Positions 54,870 through 62,316 of a stretch of DNA of 64,000 nucleotides are shown in pieces. Below the pieces are notes generated by a model, which ran no database searches, was not told where the DNA came from, and saw only the letters and a program-made list of their open reading frames with translations. Numbering within the stretch: position 1 is the stretch's first letter; each line of letters opens with the position of its first letter. Made by a program: the position numbers and the translations under genes. The stretch is taken from NCBI RefSeq assembly GCF_900100765.1, contig NZ_FNFO01000004.1:434001-498000 (forward strand), given 5' to 3'. This stretch comes from Catalinimonas alkaloidigena (GTDB lineage: Bacteria; Bacteroidota; Bacteroidia; Cytophagales; Flexibacteraceae).

Positions 54870-57035
54870 TTACTTGACGACTTTCAGCGTTCCCTGCATG
54901 ATGTAGAAGTGACCCGGCACGGTACACACGTACGTGTACTCGCCAGGCGTTTCGGGAGCCACCAGGTAAAGGGTTTGCGACGCACCCGGACCTTGCAACT
55001 CGGTGAAGTAAAGCACCTTTTCGTTATCGGGCACGTAGTTCATCCCCTGCCCTTTCAGTCCCAACGCCATGGCCGCTTCGCCGACGGGAACGGCCTGCCC
55101 CGGCGCTACAATCACCAGGTTGTGCGGCATGTCATCGTTGTTGCTGAAGGTCAGTTCCACTTTGCTACCGGCTTTCACCGTCAGTTCCGTGACGTCGTAT
55201 TTCAGGCCGGGTTTGGTTCCCACTTTGATCGACTGATCGGCTTTGCCCCATCCGGCTGGCTTTTTGACCGGATTTTTAGCGGCGCGCGTCATCGGTGCTC
55301 CGGAGCGCGTGTTTTTCGCTTCGGGTGCGGGAGTCGCCTTGGCCTTCTTTTTCATATTGGCCTCTTTCATCATGGCATGGTCGGCATGAGCCGCGGCCGT
55401 TTTCGCCCGCTCGGGCAGCGTCAGTTTGGCACCTTCGGGGATGTTGTTCAGCGTGTAGTACGCGGTGTTGTGCAACAGCGGCAAGTTACCGTTGGAGCGC
55501 ACGCCTTCGGCTTTGATCTCATGAACGTACTTCTCCCGCAGGCCATCGACTACCAACCGGGCTTTCAGCCCATCGGCCGATACGACTACGCCCTGAATCG
55601 GATTGATCGAGTCGTTGATGACGGGGCTGCCGTATACCGGGTGGTACTTGTAAATGAAGCCGGTGATCTGGTACGAAGCCGGATCTTCGGCGGTGGCTTT
55701 GTCGACCGGTTGGGTGAACTCGATCTCAAACCCATCGGGCATGGCACGTACGGCCTTCATCTCGAACGGCGTTTTGCCGGTCCAGATCAGTCGTTGCAAC
55801 GCATAAGGCTCCGGCCCTTTCGAACCCCAGCCCCGGTTGGTTTGTCCGACGAACATGGAGCCGTCGTTGCCCCAGGCGATGCGCAACACACCCGACTGGA
55901 AGTTATCGCGGAACTGAAACGCCGCCCCCTGGTACTCGCCTTTCACTTTCTCCAGAAATACCCGGTCGATTTTGCTCTGCCCCTGATCACCGATGAACAG
56001 CTGACCTTCGAACGGACCGAACTGCCCGCCGGTGGTATCCACTTTCAATTCCGACGTTGAAATTCCCAGGATGGAGTGCGGCAGCCATACGGCCGGTAGC
56101 TTGATTTCCGGGATTTTCCGGGCCGTTTCGAACAGCGTCGTTTTGTCGTTCGGATCGTTTTCCGGTTTGATGGGATTCTGCCCTTCGGGCGTAAGACGCG
56201 GGTCTACCACGGCATACAGCTCTTCGGTCGTCAGGTCGAGCGGCGAGTTAGGTTCCGAAGTCCAACGCAACCCAGCGGGGTGGCCGACAAAGTCGCCCTT
56301 CTCGATGTGCGACACAAAACCCGAGCCCTGCCAGTCGCCCTGGTTGTCGGTGTAGAAGAACTCACCGTCCACCACACCCAAGCCACAGGGCGAGCGCATG
56401 CCCGTTGCAAACGGTTCCATTTTTCCGTCGGGGGTGATGCGCAGGGCCCAGCCACGCCACGGCACCCGGCTTTCGCCACGCCACCATTCCACGTCGCCGA
56501 AGGCCACGTTGCCCGTCACGATCATGCTGCCGTCGGGCATCACCACCGGTCCGTACGAGTACTCGTGGTAGTGCCCCGAAAGCGGCCACGCGTACACTGT
56601 TTCGTATTCGTCGGCCTTGCCGTCGCCGTCCGTATCGCGCAGGCGCGTCAGTTCACCGCGTTGCGACATGTAGAGGTCACCGTTCACGTAGGCCAGCCCG
56701 AGAATTTCGTGCAGGCCGCTTGCGAATTTGCGGTAGCGGGGCGCACTCTGTGTAGAGTACGGGTTTTCAATGATCCAGACGTCGCCCCGCCGTGTAGAGA
56801 CGGCCAGTTCGCCCGTCGGCAGTGCCACTACGCCACCGCCCTCCAGCTCAATGCCTTCGGGAATGGGAATGGTCACCATTTGGTAATAATCGTCTTCGGT
56901 AGGAGGAGCGGCGTCGGTCGACGCCTGCGCCCACACCGCCGCGGGGGCCAGCAGGGCCACCAGTGATGCACCCAGGCAACGGCGCAGCCAGGCTGAGGGC
57001 GCTTGTAAAAATTTATGAGAAAACATGTTGTTCAA
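54870..57035 (-). CDS. Exported propeller protein with C-terminal cupredoxin domain
   Basis: This 721-residue protein has a signal peptide ending VWAQ. Residues about 45-470 form a six-bladed propeller of the glucose/sorbosone dehydrogenase-like type (ALPTGELAVSTRRGDVWII, DTDGDGKADEYETVYAWPLSGHYHEY). A beta-sandwich and a lysine/alanine-rich linker follow. The last 120 residues are a plastocyanin/azurin-like domain with a type 1 copper site: a histidine in DMPHNLV, then C704-x4-H709-x3-M713 in YVCTVPGHFYIM. It could pass electrons from a substrate oxidised at the propeller to copper. It lies directly after the DUF1080 gene, 9 bases apart, so the two form an operon. Confidence 0.85.
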   Translation of the reverse strand: MNNMFSHKFLQAPSAWLRRCLGASLVALLAPAAVWAQASTDAAPPTEDDYYQMVTIPIPEGIELEGGGVVALPTGELAVSTRRGDVWIIENPYSTQSAPRYRKFASGLHEILGLAYVNGDLYMSQRGELTRLRDTDGDGKADEYETVYAWPLSGHYHEYSYGPVVMPDGSMIVTGNVAFGDVEWWRGESRVPWRGWALRITPDGKMEPFATGMRSPCGLGVVDGEFFYTDNQGDWQGSGFVSHIEKGDFVGHPAGLRWTSEPNSPLDLTTEELYAVVDPRLTPEGQNPIKPENDPNDKTTLFETARKIPEIKLPAVWLPHSILGISTSELKVDTTGGQFGPFEGQLFIGDQGQSKIDRVFLEKVKGEYQGAAFQFRDNFQSGVLRIAWGNDGSMFVGQTNRGWGSKGPEPYALQRLIWTGKTPFEMKAVRAMPDGFEIEFTQPVDKATAEDPASYQITGFIYKYHPVYGSPVINDSINPIQGVVVSADGLKARLVVDGLREKYVHEIKAEGVRSNGNLPLLHNTAYYTLNNIPEGAKLTLPERAKTAAAHADHAMMKEANMKKKAKATPAPEAKNTRSGAPMTRAAKNPVKKPAGWGKADQSIKVGTKPGLKYDVTELTVKAGSKVELTFSNNDDMPHNLVIVAPGQAVPVGEAAMALGLKGQGMNYVPDNEKVLYFTELQGPGASQTLYLVAPETPGEYTYVCTVPGHFYIMQGTLKVVK

Positions 57036-57044
57036 GATTCGGGA

Positions 57045-58928
57045 TTACCAGATGATTTCGTAACGCAGAGCCTGTCCGGCACGCATTTGGGCCATGGGGA
57101 CCACCAGTTCGTTGCCGTTGCGCACGGTAGGCGTCGGCCCTTCCAGCAGCTTTACTTTGTACTGCTGATCGTTGATGGTATAGGCACCATCGCGCTGCTT
57201 GGCGATGCCCGTCCCGTTGGCCACGCGGAAATAGAGGCCGGTCGAGGCCGGATTTTCCAGCCGGATTTCCCGCACCAGTTTCTTGCCCCCTTCGGCCGGC
57301 ACAATGCGGTCCTGAACGTTCAGGCCGTGGATGGTATAGCGGAAAGTGGGGTAGCCTTGTGCGTCGAGTTTGTAACCGCGCATGCGGTAGGTGCCCTCCG
57401 GCTCGGTGGTAGGCCACTCGGCATTGGTGGTAGTCAGCACGGCCAGCGCGGGTGCGTCGTTCAGCGGCAGTATGCTGCCCATAGGATCGGCACTGCCATC
57501 GCCCCGGCTGTTCCACATGGGCGTAGCGTCCAGAAACTCGCCGCGCCACACCTGCACCAACGCGCCGTTGTCGGCATCGAACGTATAGTGTACGCCCGAC
57601 GGATCACCGACCGAAATGGCGTGCGGAATCCGGCGTTCGGGCGTAGTGGCATCCTGCTTGAAGTCGATGAAGCTGCGGAATACTTTCGGCTCGCCCTGCA
57701 CCGGCAGGAGGATCGGGCTGGTGGGGTCGTTCAGCGGCATCGACCCGGAGGCGTGCAACGGCTGACGACGCATGCCGGGTCCTGACACCATCAGGCCGAG
57801 TTGCTGCCCCTGCCACGAAAAATCTTTCAGGGTCAGGATTTCAAACTGCTGCGCCCCGGCCTGCAACTGCACCGGCGTGCCGTCTGGTATCCGCTTGTTG
57901 CCGATCATCATCTGGTTGCGGGTCCCGGTGTTCAGCTCAAAAATGTACTGGCCGGCCGCCGGGATTTGCATCGTGCCTGTAATCTGGTAGGCGTACTCGT
58001 TCGCGCCGCTGGCCCCTCGCCACGTCAGCTCGTTCAAGGTACCTTCCTGCGAAGCCGCTTTGCTGGATAGCTCTTCCGGTTTCTGAAACGCGCCTTCGTA
58101 CAGGCGATACTTCAGGTTCGAAAGTGCGATTTTATCCTGGGTAAAAGCTTTATACGCCAGGTTGCGAAACGCAACGGCACCGTGATCGCCCTGAATGAAC
58201 AGCGGGCCGGTGGCTGCCTCTTCCGGGAACGCCGGGCCGCGGGTGGGGCCGGTCAGTTCTACGTTTTCGTGCAGCACGGTGCCGTTCAGGCTCAGGCTCA
58301 AGATGCGTGCGTTGGCCACTTTTTTGCCCCCTTCGAAGCGCGGTGCCTGAAACGAAATTTCGAGGTGTTGCCAGAGACCGGGCGCGCGGCTCACGTTGAT
58401 GCCGGGCGCGTGGCCTTCGTAGCCGTGCTGTGTGGCTTCGTCCCAGCGTGCGTAGATGGCGCCGTTGTCCTGGTACGTCATGTTAGGCTTACCCCAGCTG
58501 TCCAACAGCTGAATTTCGTAACGTCCCATGAGGTAAACGCCCGAATTCGAGCCTTCGGCCATCATGTAGTCGAGCGACAGGTCCACATCGCCAAACTCCT
58601 GCTTGGTCATGATGTTGGCTTTGGCCTTGTCGGTAGGTTGGTTCACCAGAATGCCCGTGCCGCTGGTCGTGGTAAACTGACCGGCTTTTTTCGGGTGCGT
58701 GGTGACCGAGCCGACCACCGTCCAGTTACCGGCGGTGGACTGAAACGCAGAGAGGTCCGTCAGGGGAATGGCGGTGTATCCGGCCTGCGGAGTTTGTGCC
58801 TGTAGCCCCAGAAAACTGCATAGGGAGAGGGCTAACAGAGCCAAACGCCAGGTGGGTGGGGGGACCGTGAGCGGTCTTCGTCCCTGAAACCTGGCGTTCA
58901 GCGAAAGACGTACTTTCATAAAGAACAT
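57045..58928 (-). CDS. DUF1080 (3-keto-glycoside hydrolase-like) and PA14-like exported protein
   Basis: This protein of about 627 residues is exported (hydrophobic signal ending LGLQAQ). Residues about 50-240 fit DUF1080, a concanavalin-like fold: FGDVDLSLDYMMAEGSNSGV, YEIQLLDSWG and LWQHLEISFQAP. Members of this family hydrolyse 3-keto-disaccharides or bind sugars. About 250-400 resembles a PA14-like sandwich, followed by a unique C-terminal part with YTFDADNGALVQVWRGEF. The gene is directly upstream of the propeller-cupredoxin gene, an association that suggests oxidative sugar breakdown. The frame is open to 59066; the ATG at 58928 (or 58919) gives the signal peptide. Confidence 0.82.
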   Translation of the reverse strand: MFFMKVRLSLNARFQGRRPLTVPPPTWRLALLALSLCSFLGLQAQTPQAGYTAIPLTDLSAFQSTAGNWTVVGSVTTHPKKAGQFTTTSGTGILVNQPTDKAKANIMTKQEFGDVDLSLDYMMAEGSNSGVYLMGRYEIQLLDSWGKPNMTYQDNGAIYARWDEATQHGYEGHAPGINVSRAPGLWQHLEISFQAPRFEGGKKVANARILSLSLNGTVLHENVELTGPTRGPAFPEEAATGPLFIQGDHGAVAFRNLAYKAFTQDKIALSNLKYRLYEGAFQKPEELSSKAASQEGTLNELTWRGASGANEYAYQITGTMQIPAAGQYIFELNTGTRNQMMIGNKRIPDGTPVQLQAGAQQFEILTLKDFSWQGQQLGLMVSGPGMRRQPLHASGSMPLNDPTSPILLPVQGEPKVFRSFIDFKQDATTPERRIPHAISVGDPSGVHYTFDADNGALVQVWRGEFLDATPMWNSRGDGSADPMGSILPLNDAPALAVLTTTNAEWPTTEPEGTYRMRGYKLDAQGYPTFRYTIHGLNVQDRIVPAEGGKKLVREIRLENPASTGLYFRVANGTGIAKQRDGAYTINDQQYKVKLLEGPTPTVRNGNELVVPMAQMRAGQALRYEIIW

Positions 58929-59066
58929 GATAAGTTTGGAAGATAGGTAAAAACAAGGCCGAAAAATAAGGACAATTGCCCTGCCAGACAACGTGCAAAC
59001 GTTTGTTTTCTTCCAAAAAATGCCTCCCTCCTTTTCTCTACAGCACAGACGTAGCCGTTCGCGCAC

Positions 59067-60584
59067 TCAGAAGGATTGCGGGGTCTGCGGCTCCATATTC
59101 TCGAAATCTTCCAAGATGTAAATGTAAAATTCCTTGCGCAGCGCGTTTCCGGTGTAAAGCAGCACGTGCTTGATGTGACGCGTCAGGCCGAACGCCTGCT
59201 CGGTTTCGGGAGCAAGCGGCACGTTGCTGATGTAGATTCCGCGGTAGCCCTGGTAGGCAAACTGTTCCAGCCCCGGCCACAGGTCAAACTGGTTCATGCG
59301 GCGGCCGCCGGAATTGATGCAATAGGTCTGCGGATGCCCCGGCAGGTAAAAAGCCAGCTCGGACGCGATCTGGTAACTGTCGCTGAACACAAAATGAGGC
59401 ACTTCGCCCAGTTGCTGCCGCTCGGCTTCGACCGTTTCGGCCAGTTCGCGCCAGCCCATCATCTCGCCCAGCGGTTCGGCCGTCGGGTCAACCCAGCGTA
59501 CCAGGGTAGTGCGCGTGACGGGGATGAAAACCAGCATCAGCACGCCTACCGACAGCATCACCGCCCGGCACGTTTGCCGCAGCCGCCCCAGCGTCGTTGC
59601 CAGATAGGCCAGCAGGATAGGCAACGTTGCGTAAGCAAAAACCGGCCAGTTGGGATAGGCCTCACGCCAGACCGACATGCCCCCGAAAAACAAGAACACG
59701 CCCGCCGGAAAGCTCCACAAAAACGCCACCTCCGGTTTCAGCGAACGGCGCGCCAGACGTTTCAGGCCGAGGTAGAACGTGGGCAGCAAAAACACCGAGA
59801 CCAAAGCCGCCTGCCCCCCCGTGTAGGAAACAAACCGCACCAGCCCTTTCCAGACGGTGGGCGTTGCTGCATCGGCCCCGGCCAGGTGCGTCACGTGCCG
59901 CGCCGCCACAAACTGATGCTGCGCCATCCAGACCAGCACCGGGACCATACACACCACCGTAATGCCAACGGCCAGCCAGAAGCCTTTTTGTCCCAACCGC
60001 TCCCGCCGGTACACCCACAGCCAGATCAGCGCGATGGGAAAAAACAGCACCATCACGTACTTGGCCAGAAAACCCAGCCCCGCACCGAGGCCCACCAGGC
60101 ACCAATCGCGCAGGCGGTTGTGCTGCACAGCACGCCAGAAATAGTAGAGTGTAAACAGCCAACAGAGGGCCAGCGGACTGTCGGTCAGAAACAGCGTGGA
60201 AACAAAATGGTAGAACGGAAAGGCATAGACCAGGAAAGAGGCCAGTACGGCCGTCAGTTCATCCTTGAACAACTCATACGTCAGGCGGTAGACCAGCACC
60301 ACGAGGCCCAGCCCAACCAGCACGGCGTTGAGCCGAATGGCAAATACCGTATCGCCAAAAACCTGGGTCGTCAGGAAGTTGAGGTAGGCAATCAGCGGCG
60401 GCTTGGAATAGTACGACCAAGCCAAGTGTTTGGACCAGAGCCAGTACTGGGCTTCTTCGACGTACAGGTCGATCGGTTCCAGCACCAGCACGTAAAGTTT
60501 GAAGAGCGCCAGCACGACGTGAAAAAGCAAGACATAACGCCAGGCGACGGAGGCCCGTAGGCCCAGATGAGTAGAAGTTTGCAT
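59067..60584 (-). CDS. GT39/ArnT-like integral membrane glycosyltransferase
   Basis: This 505-residue protein has about 11 hydrophobic helices and the ArnT/PMT-like N-terminal motif LYVEEAQYWLWSKHLAWSYYSKPPLIAYL (acidic catalytic pair in the first external loop). It also has PFYHFVSTLFLTDSPLALCW and a GLGFLAKYVMVL segment. It would transfer a sugar from a polyprenyl phosphate donor to an acceptor on the periplasmic side, such as lipid A or a protein. The frame extends upstream to 60941 but the ATG at 60584 precedes the first helix. It is divergent from the ABC transporter gene. Confidence 0.9.
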   Translation of the reverse strand: MQTSTHLGLRASVAWRYVLLFHVVLALFKLYVLVLEPIDLYVEEAQYWLWSKHLAWSYYSKPPLIAYLNFLTTQVFGDTVFAIRLNAVLVGLGLVVLVYRLTYELFKDELTAVLASFLVYAFPFYHFVSTLFLTDSPLALCWLFTLYYFWRAVQHNRLRDWCLVGLGAGLGFLAKYVMVLFFPIALIWLWVYRRERLGQKGFWLAVGITVVCMVPVLVWMAQHQFVAARHVTHLAGADAATPTVWKGLVRFVSYTGGQAALVSVFLLPTFYLGLKRLARRSLKPEVAFLWSFPAGVFLFFGGMSVWREAYPNWPVFAYATLPILLAYLATTLGRLRQTCRAVMLSVGVLMLVFIPVTRTTLVRWVDPTAEPLGEMMGWRELAETVEAERQQLGEVPHFVFSDSYQIASELAFYLPGHPQTYCINSGGRRMNQFDLWPGLEQFAYQGYRGIYISNVPLAPETEQAFGLTRHIKHVLLYTGNALRKEFYIYILEDFENMEPQTPQSF

Positions 60585-60759
60585 GCCGGGAGAGGAGCTA
60601 GTGAGAGAGCAATAGAACACATCCGGTGAAGGTTCTGAAAACGCATACGGACCAATCCCGAAAAAGAGCACCCGAACCGGAAAAAATCCCGCCCAAACGG
60701 TCCGGTCTCGTGCGGACGAAAAAGCCACACATGCCTGCGTTTCACTAACTTCGGCATTC

Positions 60760-62316
60760 ATGCAAACGCTCCTCCACTTTTTCTGGGAAAAGCGCGCCGA
60801 AATCGCCGAACAAACCCTGCAGCACCTCTGGATTACCCTCACTTCGCTGGGCATTGCGCTGGTCGTTGGCCTGAGCCTGGGGATTGTGCTGACGCGGCGA
60901 CCTCGGCTGGCCGGGAGCGTGCTGGGGGCGGTCAACGTCATTCAGACCATTCCGAGCCTGGCATTACTGGGTTTTCTGCTGCCGTTGGTCGGCATCGGCG
61001 TGGTACCGGCCATCATCGCGTTGTTTTTGTACGCATTGCTGCCCATTGTCCGGAACACCTACGCGGGCATTACTGAAGTTGCACCCGATGTACGCGAGGC
61101 CGCGCGGGGGCTGGGCATGACCGACTGGCAGGTGTTGACGCGGGTCGAACTGCCGCTGGCCGTACCCGTTATTTTTGCGGGCATTCGGACGGCGATGGTG
61201 ATCAACATCGGCATTGCCACGCTCTGTGCGTTGATTGCCGCGGGCGGGCTGGGCGAATTTATTTTCCGGGGCATTGCCCTCAACAACGTCAACCTGATTC
61301 TGGCCGGGGCCGTCCCGGCGGCCCTGCTGGCCCTGGCCTTTGACGGACTGCTGGGACTGGTGCAGCGCCACATCCGCCGGCTCGTCAAACCCGTTTTATT
61401 CACGGCAGCGGGCCTTTTTCTAGTCTTTGTTCCCTACCAGGCCCTTACCTCTTACGGCTCCGATCAACTGCGGGCGGGCTTTCCGTCCGAGTTCGTCGAA
61501 CGCGCCGACGGGTACACGGGCCTGCGGCAAGCCTACGGACTGGACCTGGCCGTATCGGAACTGGAAATCGGGCTGATGTACGAAGCGGTACGGAACGGCG
61601 ACGTCGACGTGATCTCGGGTTTTTCGACCGACGGACGCATTGAGGCCTATCACCTGCGCGTGCTGGAAGACGACAAGCAGTACTTCCCGCCCTACTACGC
61701 CGCGCCCCTCGTGCGGAACGCCACGCTGCGCCGCTATCCGGAGCTGAAAGACGCGCTGGCGTGGCTCGACGACCGCATTTCGGAGGCAGAAATGATGCGG
61801 ATGAACTATCAGGTCGACGAAGCCAAGCAAACACCCCAGCAGGTAGCCGCGAATTTCCTGCAACAGAAAGGGCTGAAACTAGTCCCGAAACGCGCAGGAA
61901 ATGCCCAAGTGCAGATCGGCTCGAAAAACTTTACGGAAAGTTTTATTCTGGCCGAACTCCTGGGGCTGGTGATTGAAGCACGTACGGGCCTAACGACCGA
62001 AACCAAGTTGGGGTTTGGCGGGACCAAGCTGGTGTTCGACGCGCTGACGCACGGCGACATCGATCTGTATCCGGAATACACCGGAACGGGTCTCCTGGCG
62101 CTGCTGCAGGCCGACGAAGCCACGATCGACAGCGTGACGTTCGACCGTGAACGGGTCTACCGGTACGTGCAACGCGAAATGCAGACCCGCTACGACGTGC
62201 AATGGCTGCAACCGCTGGGGTTCAATAATACCCACGCCATGATGATGCGCGAATCGCAGGCAGAGGAACTAGGACTACGGACCATTTCGGATTTGGCGAA
62301 CTTCACGCAGAAATAA
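60760..62316 (+). CDS. ABC permease fused to a circularly permuted glycine-betaine-type binding domain
   Basis: This 518-residue protein starts with a permease domain (about 1-215) of the OpuCB/OpuBB type: six helices and the loop EAARGLGMTDWQVLTRVELPLA that docks the ATPase. A further helix (about 218-235) leads to an OpuCC-like binding domain, but its halves are reversed. Residues 240-372 (GFPSEFVERADGYTGL to FLQQKGL) correspond to the C-terminal half of normal OpuCC proteins. Residues 384-515 (VQIGSKNFTESFILAELL to FNNTHAMMMRES and TISDLA) correspond to the N-terminal half. It would import betaine, choline or a related quaternary amine. No ATPase gene is nearby; the left neighbour is divergent and the right one unrelated. 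Confidence 0.88.
   Translation: MQTLLHFFWEKRAEIAEQTLQHLWITLTSLGIALVVGLSLGIVLTRRPRLAGSVLGAVNVIQTIPSLALLGFLLPLVGIGVVPAIIALFLYALLPIVRNTYAGITEVAPDVREAARGLGMTDWQVLTRVELPLAVPVIFAGIRTAMVINIGIATLCALIAAGGLGEFIFRGIALNNVNLILAGAVPAALLALAFDGLLGLVQRHIRRLVKPVLFTAAGLFLVFVPYQALTSYGSDQLRAGFPSEFVERADGYTGLRQAYGLDLAVSELEIGLMYEAVRNGDVDVISGFSTDGRIEAYHLRVLEDDKQYFPPYYAAPLVRNATLRRYPELKDALAWLDDRISEAEMMRMNYQVDEAKQTPQQVAANFLQQKGLKLVPKRAGNAQVQIGSKNFTESFILAELLGLVIEARTGLTTETKLGFGGTKLVFDALTHGDIDLYPEYTGTGLLALLQADEATIDSVTFDRERVYRYVQREMQTRYDVQWLQPLGFNNTHAMMMRESQAEELGLRTISDLANFTQK

Follow-up and report, generated by a model that had tools for sequence, protein, structure and literature searches.

The permease-receptor gene and its parts

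The window, a stretch of 64,000 nucleotides from the genome of Catalinimonas alkaloidigena, carries on its plus strand an open reading frame at 60760-62316 that begins with ATG, is intact throughout and encodes 518 amino acids. A permease domain (PF00528 at residues 37-207) is followed on the same chain by a substrate-binding domain (SBD) of family PF04069, which agrees with the permease-binding protein fusion proposed in a first-pass annotation made from the letters of the sequence. When aligned, the permease is 38-58% identical to 15 permease segments from non-permuted relatives. The gene can be divided as follows:

60760-62316, plus strand: whole gene, ABC permease with circularly permuted PF04069 SBD (518 aa)
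60760-61389, plus strand: permease (transmembrane) domain, residues 1-210 (PF00528 at residues 37-207)
61390-61458, plus strand: last membrane (anchor) helix and short linker, residues 211-233, placed from the full-length model
61459-61887, plus strand: C-terminal half of the SBD, placed first, residues 234-376 (best profile stretch 113-257)
61888-61908, plus strand: new junction of the old C-terminus with the old N-terminus, about residues 377-383 (gap between the profile stretches)
61909-62313, plus strand: N-terminal half of the SBD, placed last, about residues 384-518 (profile 2-119)

In the full-length structural model the anchor helix ends near residue 230 and the first strand of the SBD begins at 238, with low confidence at 223-225 and 227-233. 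A match of the protein to PF04612 (T2SSM) was dismissed as chance, its 19.6 bits lying under the cut-off of 27.8. On the minus strand, window positions 54870-60941 hold genes that we named by eye as a PQQ-type dehydrogenase with a cupredoxin tail, a DUF1080-like protein and an ArnT-like glycosyltransferase.

The halves of the binding domain are swapped

PF04069 matches the window protein in two stretches (E 5.2e-60). The best of them places residues 234-369 on profile positions 113-257, and the second, covering profile positions 2-119, lies downstream in the same frame in a six-frame search of the genome. The start of the NCBIfam OsmF model (positions 3-133 of 283) likewise matches the end of the protein, residues 382-517. 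Searches against sequences of solved structures gave the same picture. EgtUC aligned in reversed pieces (chain 137-274 with query 235-372, chain 10-133 with query 386-513), engineered sensors, AfProX and OpuBC/OpuCC also matched half by half in reverse, and the order was reversed in all three PDB alignments shown. E. coli ProX, used as a control, gave a single collinear PF04069 stretch (profile 2-256). The motifs quoted in the first-pass annotation do occur in the order that it gave, with the C-terminal half ahead of the N-terminal half.

We then compared both orders with a normal-order profile built from 62 normal-order SBD rows of the fetched loci. The natural window SBD gave two partial matches of 178 and 131 bits, which became one match over profile positions 1-266 with 324 bits once the halves had been swapped in silico, as the first-pass annotation had anticipated. 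A better fit of a normal-order domain had been named there as the result that would speak against the idea; we found the opposite, with the swapped order outscoring the natural one in 71 of 71 permuted rows (some loci are present in duplicate in both the 62-row and the 71-row set). The SBD resembles the EgtU/OpuC (F-III) class in sequence over both halves and lacks the order typical of that class, N-half before C-half. One Pfam name can mask circular permutations.

Distribution of the permuted architecture

Within the order to which the host belongs, 114 of 390 genomes match at E <= 1e-20, and in 109 of the 390 a single alignment spans permease, C-half and N-half, both counts including the window's genome. 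Four genomes (G623, G087, G026 and G570) have split, partial or broken matches in the same permuted order, and one of the 114 (G070) carries the SBD in front of the permease. An interrupted copy of the permuted gene, with several stops, was seen at G570:C29:78838-80359. At 1e-30, the phylum sample yielded matches in 53 of 395 genomes, 22 in one permuted piece and 31 through the permease only; eight of these 31 were read and all eight were SBD-first. Matches were found in 21 of the 395 genomes of the class sample, 20 of them permuted. The order, phylum and class samples overlap, and the window's genome is in each. The search of Bacteroidota genomes that had been suggested in the first-pass annotation therefore recovered the same order repeatedly, as one-piece alignments in 22 of 395 genomes at the level of the phylum and 109 of 390 at the level of the order. 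The permuted architecture is conserved and not an accident of one genome. The full protein was absent from the 10 other searched genomes of the window's family, among which G002 gave a weak match to the permease only, so its presence is patchy.

In the class of genome G221, 24 of 149 genomes match and only G221 does so in one piece; G221 and locus L033 are apparently the same record, a Chlorobiota metagenome bin with a contig of 13.6 kb. Other phyla were covered by 47 loci from a scan of named genomes, among which L033 is the sole permuted one, and by eight genomes searched with PF04069. The scan works by exact matches of short peptides, which leaves most relatives unseen; permuted members in other phyla are possible. 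The other fused loci of the scan are either TM-N-C (Bacillota, Cyanobacteriota) or SBD-first, and many loci have separate permease and substrate-binding protein (SBP) genes.

On a permease-domain tree made with a quick method, 60 permuted rows fall into one group (SH-aLRT 84, not starred), and on the SBD tree 63 permuted rows do so (97, starred). Twelve SBD-first rows form a separate group on both trees (96 and 100). The trees were midpoint-rooted for drawing only, and the direction of change cannot be read from them. Repeat loci (L001, L002, L092, L115-L120 and L122) were removed from the trees, and the identical fragments L023 and L121 were retained in the SBD tree and in the 63-row residue counts given below, which thus contain one identical pair.

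Two further arrangements were observed along the way. Loci L107-L113, L024, L059, L064, L129 and L130 show a third architecture, N-C-TM, in which a normal-order SBD precedes the permease; it occurs in Bacteroidota and a few other records and forms one group on both trees. L064, titled as a Bordetella parapertussis metagenome-assembled genome, has an SBD-first gene that resembles those of Bacteroidota, and its label may be wrong. In L124-L128 (family code f76), from genomes of the phylum, the permease and a normal-order SBP are separate genes close to each other, possibly the state before fusion.

Predicted fold and position of the cut

AlphaFold2 predicted a confident fold for the permuted SBD from 28 alignment rows (mean pLDDT 92.7, pTM 0.88), in line with the structural check proposed at the outset; a mixed alignment (A1), in which segments of the N-half were misplaced, was left out of folding. 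The best structural match of the model is Bacillus subtilis OpuAC, which is collinear with it (Z 18.3, 241 of 264 residues, 3.9 A, 14% identity). The match to EgtUC is confined to one half (139 residues, Z 9.5). Confidence in the full-length model drops in its membrane part, with pLDDT below 50 at residues 65-79, 162-175, 223-225 and 227-233, and for this reason docking cannot be read from it. A comparison of that model with 7ahh was set aside, as 361 residues aligned at an rmsd of 23 A.

The two lobes of EgtUC are described as D1 (233-331 and 445-506) and D2 (341-432) (PMC9732360). The structural match of the SBD model to 7txk starts with window residue 234 (residue 1 of the model) at EgtUC residue 363, and the sequence alignment with EgtUC breaks at the same place, inside D2. 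The cut therefore lies inside lobe D2: D1 is continuous, D2 is split, and the membrane helix is attached to D2 instead of D1. Mapping the EgtUC lobes onto the window protein gives these approximate segments:

61459-61662, plus strand: putative lobe D2 segment 1, about residues 234-301, bearing the tether (mapped from EgtUC D2, 341-432)
61699-62205, plus strand: putative lobe D1, continuous, about residues 314-482 (mapped from EgtUC D1, 233-331 and 445-506)
62233-62313, plus strand: putative lobe D2 segment 2, about residues 492-518, with the new C-terminus (mapped from EgtUC)

The hinge crossings should remain two. The first-pass annotation had the membrane helix entering the fold at the former domain junction, which did not hold: the helix enters about 22-27 residues past the start of the lobe, within D2, so that the difference lies in the lobe that bears the tether. 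The stretch between permease residue 210 and the start of the SBD has a median length of 24 residues in 69 permuted rows (not de-duplicated), compared with 30.5 in 10 normal-order fusions. An internal repeat between the halves was dropped as an explanation of the cut site, since profile-profile comparison gave a probability of 3.9% and E 0.011 over 28 columns.

It could be asked whether the reversed order is an artefact of assembly or annotation, or a chance similarity of a normal-order domain. This has virtually no chance of being right, and independent genomes already refute it: the reading frame has no breaks, 109 of the order's 390 genomes give an alignment that is uninterrupted from the permease across the C-half to the N-half, and swapped halves score higher in 71 of 71 rows. 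A subtler possibility accepts the order and has the SBD halves pair between two subunits, as a domain swap in a homodimer, instead of within one chain. The permease is expected to be homodimeric, which would bring two SBDs close together; against this, the single-chain model is confident by both measures (pLDDT 92.7, pTM 0.88) and the C-to-N junction is short, with 0-7 residues between the extrapolated ends in 69 of 69 rows (not de-duplicated), and we regard such a swap between subunits as very unlikely. The exchange of halves within the chain is real and common to many related bacteria.

Comparison with OpuA and OpuAC

The statement in the first-pass annotation that known relatives have the opposite order is correct for EgtU, OpuB, OpuC, AfProX and E. 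coli ProX; it fails for B. subtilis OpuAC and for Peribacillus OpuA. The latter, a fused protein of 583 aa (L187:3220-4971), has the order TM-C-N in Pfam, as does the window protein. Its alignment with OpuAC (2b4l) runs from one end to the other, whereas Lactococcus lactis OpuA (7ahc) matches it in two pieces of reversed order, and through these alignments L. lactis OpuA and B. subtilis-type OpuAC are permutants of each other. B. subtilis OpuAC (2b4l/2b4m) shares the order of the window SBD, as seen from the collinearity of the predicted fold and from sequence alignments, and in Bacillus-type OpuA and the window protein alike the cut is at the same loop, following the same helix (SIEDL in the former, ISDL in the latter). 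A 2008 report described circular permutation among glycine-betaine-binding proteins, including the entries 2b4l, 1r9l and 1sw1 (PMC2395249), and the same kind of swap is already known in a distant relative of this SBD. The sections of a paper on L. lactis OpuAC cited here (PMC2861598) do not mention the permutant relation to B. subtilis OpuAC.

The window SBD therefore has the permuted order and, in prediction, the fold of B. subtilis OpuAC, and lacks OpuAC-class sequence. OpuAC is a separate lipoprotein, unlike the fused SBD of the window (PMC6207618), and is absent from the 39 solved sequences that the window protein matches at E <= 0.01. L. lactis OpuA is, like the window protein, a permease with a C-terminal SBD on an anchor helix, in its case with an 11-residue linker (PMC11065425), but its SBD has the normal order and belongs to a different sequence class.

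These relationships bear on the number of permutation events. One old event in common with the OpuA/OpuAC lineage, and no separate one in the EgtU/OpuC class, would account for the shared cut after the SIEDL/ISDL helix and for the collinear folds. The sequences argue against it: compared with 13 non-permuted EgtU/OpuC-class relatives the C-half of the window SBD is 42-50% identical and its N-half 33-48%, as against 14% to OpuAC. BLASTP with the permuted Peribacillus OpuA aligned at 27% over the permease and the beginning of the C-half, with nothing meaningful in the N-half, and the normal order of L. lactis OpuA means that the permutation is not general even within OpuA. We consider a single shared event unlikely. 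Given these identities, the window protein looks like the product of a second permutation event, at the same loop, in the EgtU/OpuC class. In the open-access literature, which was the scope of our search, we found no description of permuted EgtU/OpuF-like proteins; a permutation in the EgtU/OpuC class, fused to the permease and common in one part of Bacteroidota, is apparently unreported.

Ligand cage and substrate

The closest fused systems in layout are EgtU of Streptococcus pneumoniae and OpuF of Bacillus, F-III proteins in which, as in the window protein, a permease is followed on one chain by an SBD of the same class (PMC9732360). EgtUC and the fused relatives examined here in Bacillota and Cyanobacteriota run N-half then C-half and their tether meets D1, whereas the window protein runs C-half then N-half with the tether on D2; the transmembrane domain comes first in both, and the TM-N-C order is not that of the window protein.

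The aromatic cage positions F293, Y341, Y419 and Y443 of EgtUC correspond to Y440, H492, F288 and Y312 in the window protein. Across the 63 permuted rows they are, in the same sequence, Y in 63, Y or F in 60, Y or F in 63 and Y in 63. H492 is an exception that has company, since two near relatives, L131 and L132, also deviate at this position (T and A). E244 is kept in 63 of 63 permuted rows and R248 in 59. The quaternary-amine cage of F-III proteins appears to be largely kept, H492 excepted, and the expected substrate would be betaine- or choline-like, probably with an altered fit in the window's copy. The protein probably serves to take up some quaternary ammonium compound, such as glycine betaine, choline or carnitine.

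The same residues speak to whether the protein might instead be an ergothioneine transporter, that is, an EgtU. EgtUC is its best solved sequence match, engineered sensors aside, and at the position of EgtUC I243, 32 of the 63 permuted rows have I and 18 have V. The main ergothioneine residues are nevertheless lacking. EgtUC F293, I243 and G244 are Y440, N390 and F391 in the window protein, and among the 63 rows F293 is Y in 63, G244 is F in 59 and Q in 4, and T274 is G in 63. The named determinants of ergothioneine binding, a Y-to-F switch and G244 (PMC9732360), are thus absent from the window protein and from all 63 rows, and we think an EgtU function quite improbable, the quaternary-amine substrate being preferred.

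A candidate ATPase partner

The ATPase was said in the first-pass annotation not to be adjacent, and a search of the 18 kb surrounding the gene (L115) showed none of the OpuCA type. Among 61 distinct permuted loci, 51 have such an ATPase upstream, on the same strand and inside the flank that was fetched; measured by open-frame ends, the distance is within 150 bases in 49 of them and about 800 in two. The window's gene belongs to the other 10 loci, which have none upstream. The genome has one PF04069 gene at E <= 0.001. The first-pass annotation had suggested looking in the genome for an orphan OpuCA-type ATPase, and a solitary candidate is present at C5:328,070-329,065, with its neighbours on the opposite strand. 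It is 44% identical (268 bits) to the ATPase beside the permuted gene of L033, compared with 137 and 134 bits for the next two ATPases of the genome, and its five nearest tree rows all come from permuted loci. Taken together, the ATPases of permuted loci are not cleanly grouped on this quick tree (4 changes). The best NCBIfam model of the C5 ATPase is proV, below the cut-off (289 vs 327 bits). ATPases of OpuA/OpuAC systems have CBS domains; no CBS domain is among the Pfam matches of the C5 ATPase at E <= 0.001. We infer that it is most likely the partner of the window permease-SBD. With H492 and the detached ATPase, the window's copy could be drifting or altered in specificity.

A D2-tethered receptor

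In our view the protein is, with good probability, a subunit of an ABC importer for quaternary ammonium compounds, with a permuted EgtU/OpuC-class SBD tethered by D2 and with the C5 ATPase as its source of power. This explanation builds on the observed order and its conservation, the predicted fold, the cage residues and the solitary ATPase. The homodimer, the substrate class, the ATPase partnership and the effect on docking are what we infer from them. In the standard cycle of such importers the SBD closes around its ligand and in this closed form docks on the permease dimer, after which ATP drives transfer. The window protein would be the permease-plus-receptor subunit, two copies forming the pore, each with a periplasmic SBD on a short tether. 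The old termini in D1 would have been joined by the short loop at about residues 377-383 and new termini opened in a loop of D2. This would leave the fold as it was, and the ligand cage too at all positions but one, and would change the membrane-held lobe from D1 to D2. Import would be powered by the solitary OpuCA-like ATPase of contig C5 (328,070-329,065). Since the pore should be a two-fold dimer, the D2-tethered SBD would be able to dock in the same pose, but with its lobes the other way round with respect to the subunit that carries it. An altered docking of the SBD on the pore, as suggested at first, is possible.

Whether the change of tether matters is evenly balanced in our judgement. 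The permutation may be neutral, an accident since frozen in place and without consequence for docking or tethering: the fold and the cage are retained, and each of the two trees gathers the permuted rows in a single group, as one accident would yield. Weakly against this, a permutation at the same loop also exists in OpuA/OpuAC. The D2 loop may instead have been opened independently in OpuA/OpuAC and in the EgtU/OpuC-class group because a D2 tether alters which lobe stands over its own pore subunit, a proposal that we hold only tentatively. If it is true, the permuted group amounts to a natural experiment on the control of ABC import by SBD tethering.

Treponema pallidum MglB-2 (Tp0684) offers a parallel, as another naturally circularly permuted, tethered ligand-binding protein of an ABC importer. 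Unlike the window SBD, it binds sugar, belongs to Type I / cluster B, is a lipoprotein with no permease fusion and has a fourth hinge crossing. The authors of the MglB-2 study suggest an advantage in anchoring as a possible cause of the permutation (PMC4990184). Fused SBDs serve as models of how receptors deliver cargo to ABC importers, and a tether on the opposite lobe, with the same fold and pore, permits a direct comparison that would test this anchoring idea.
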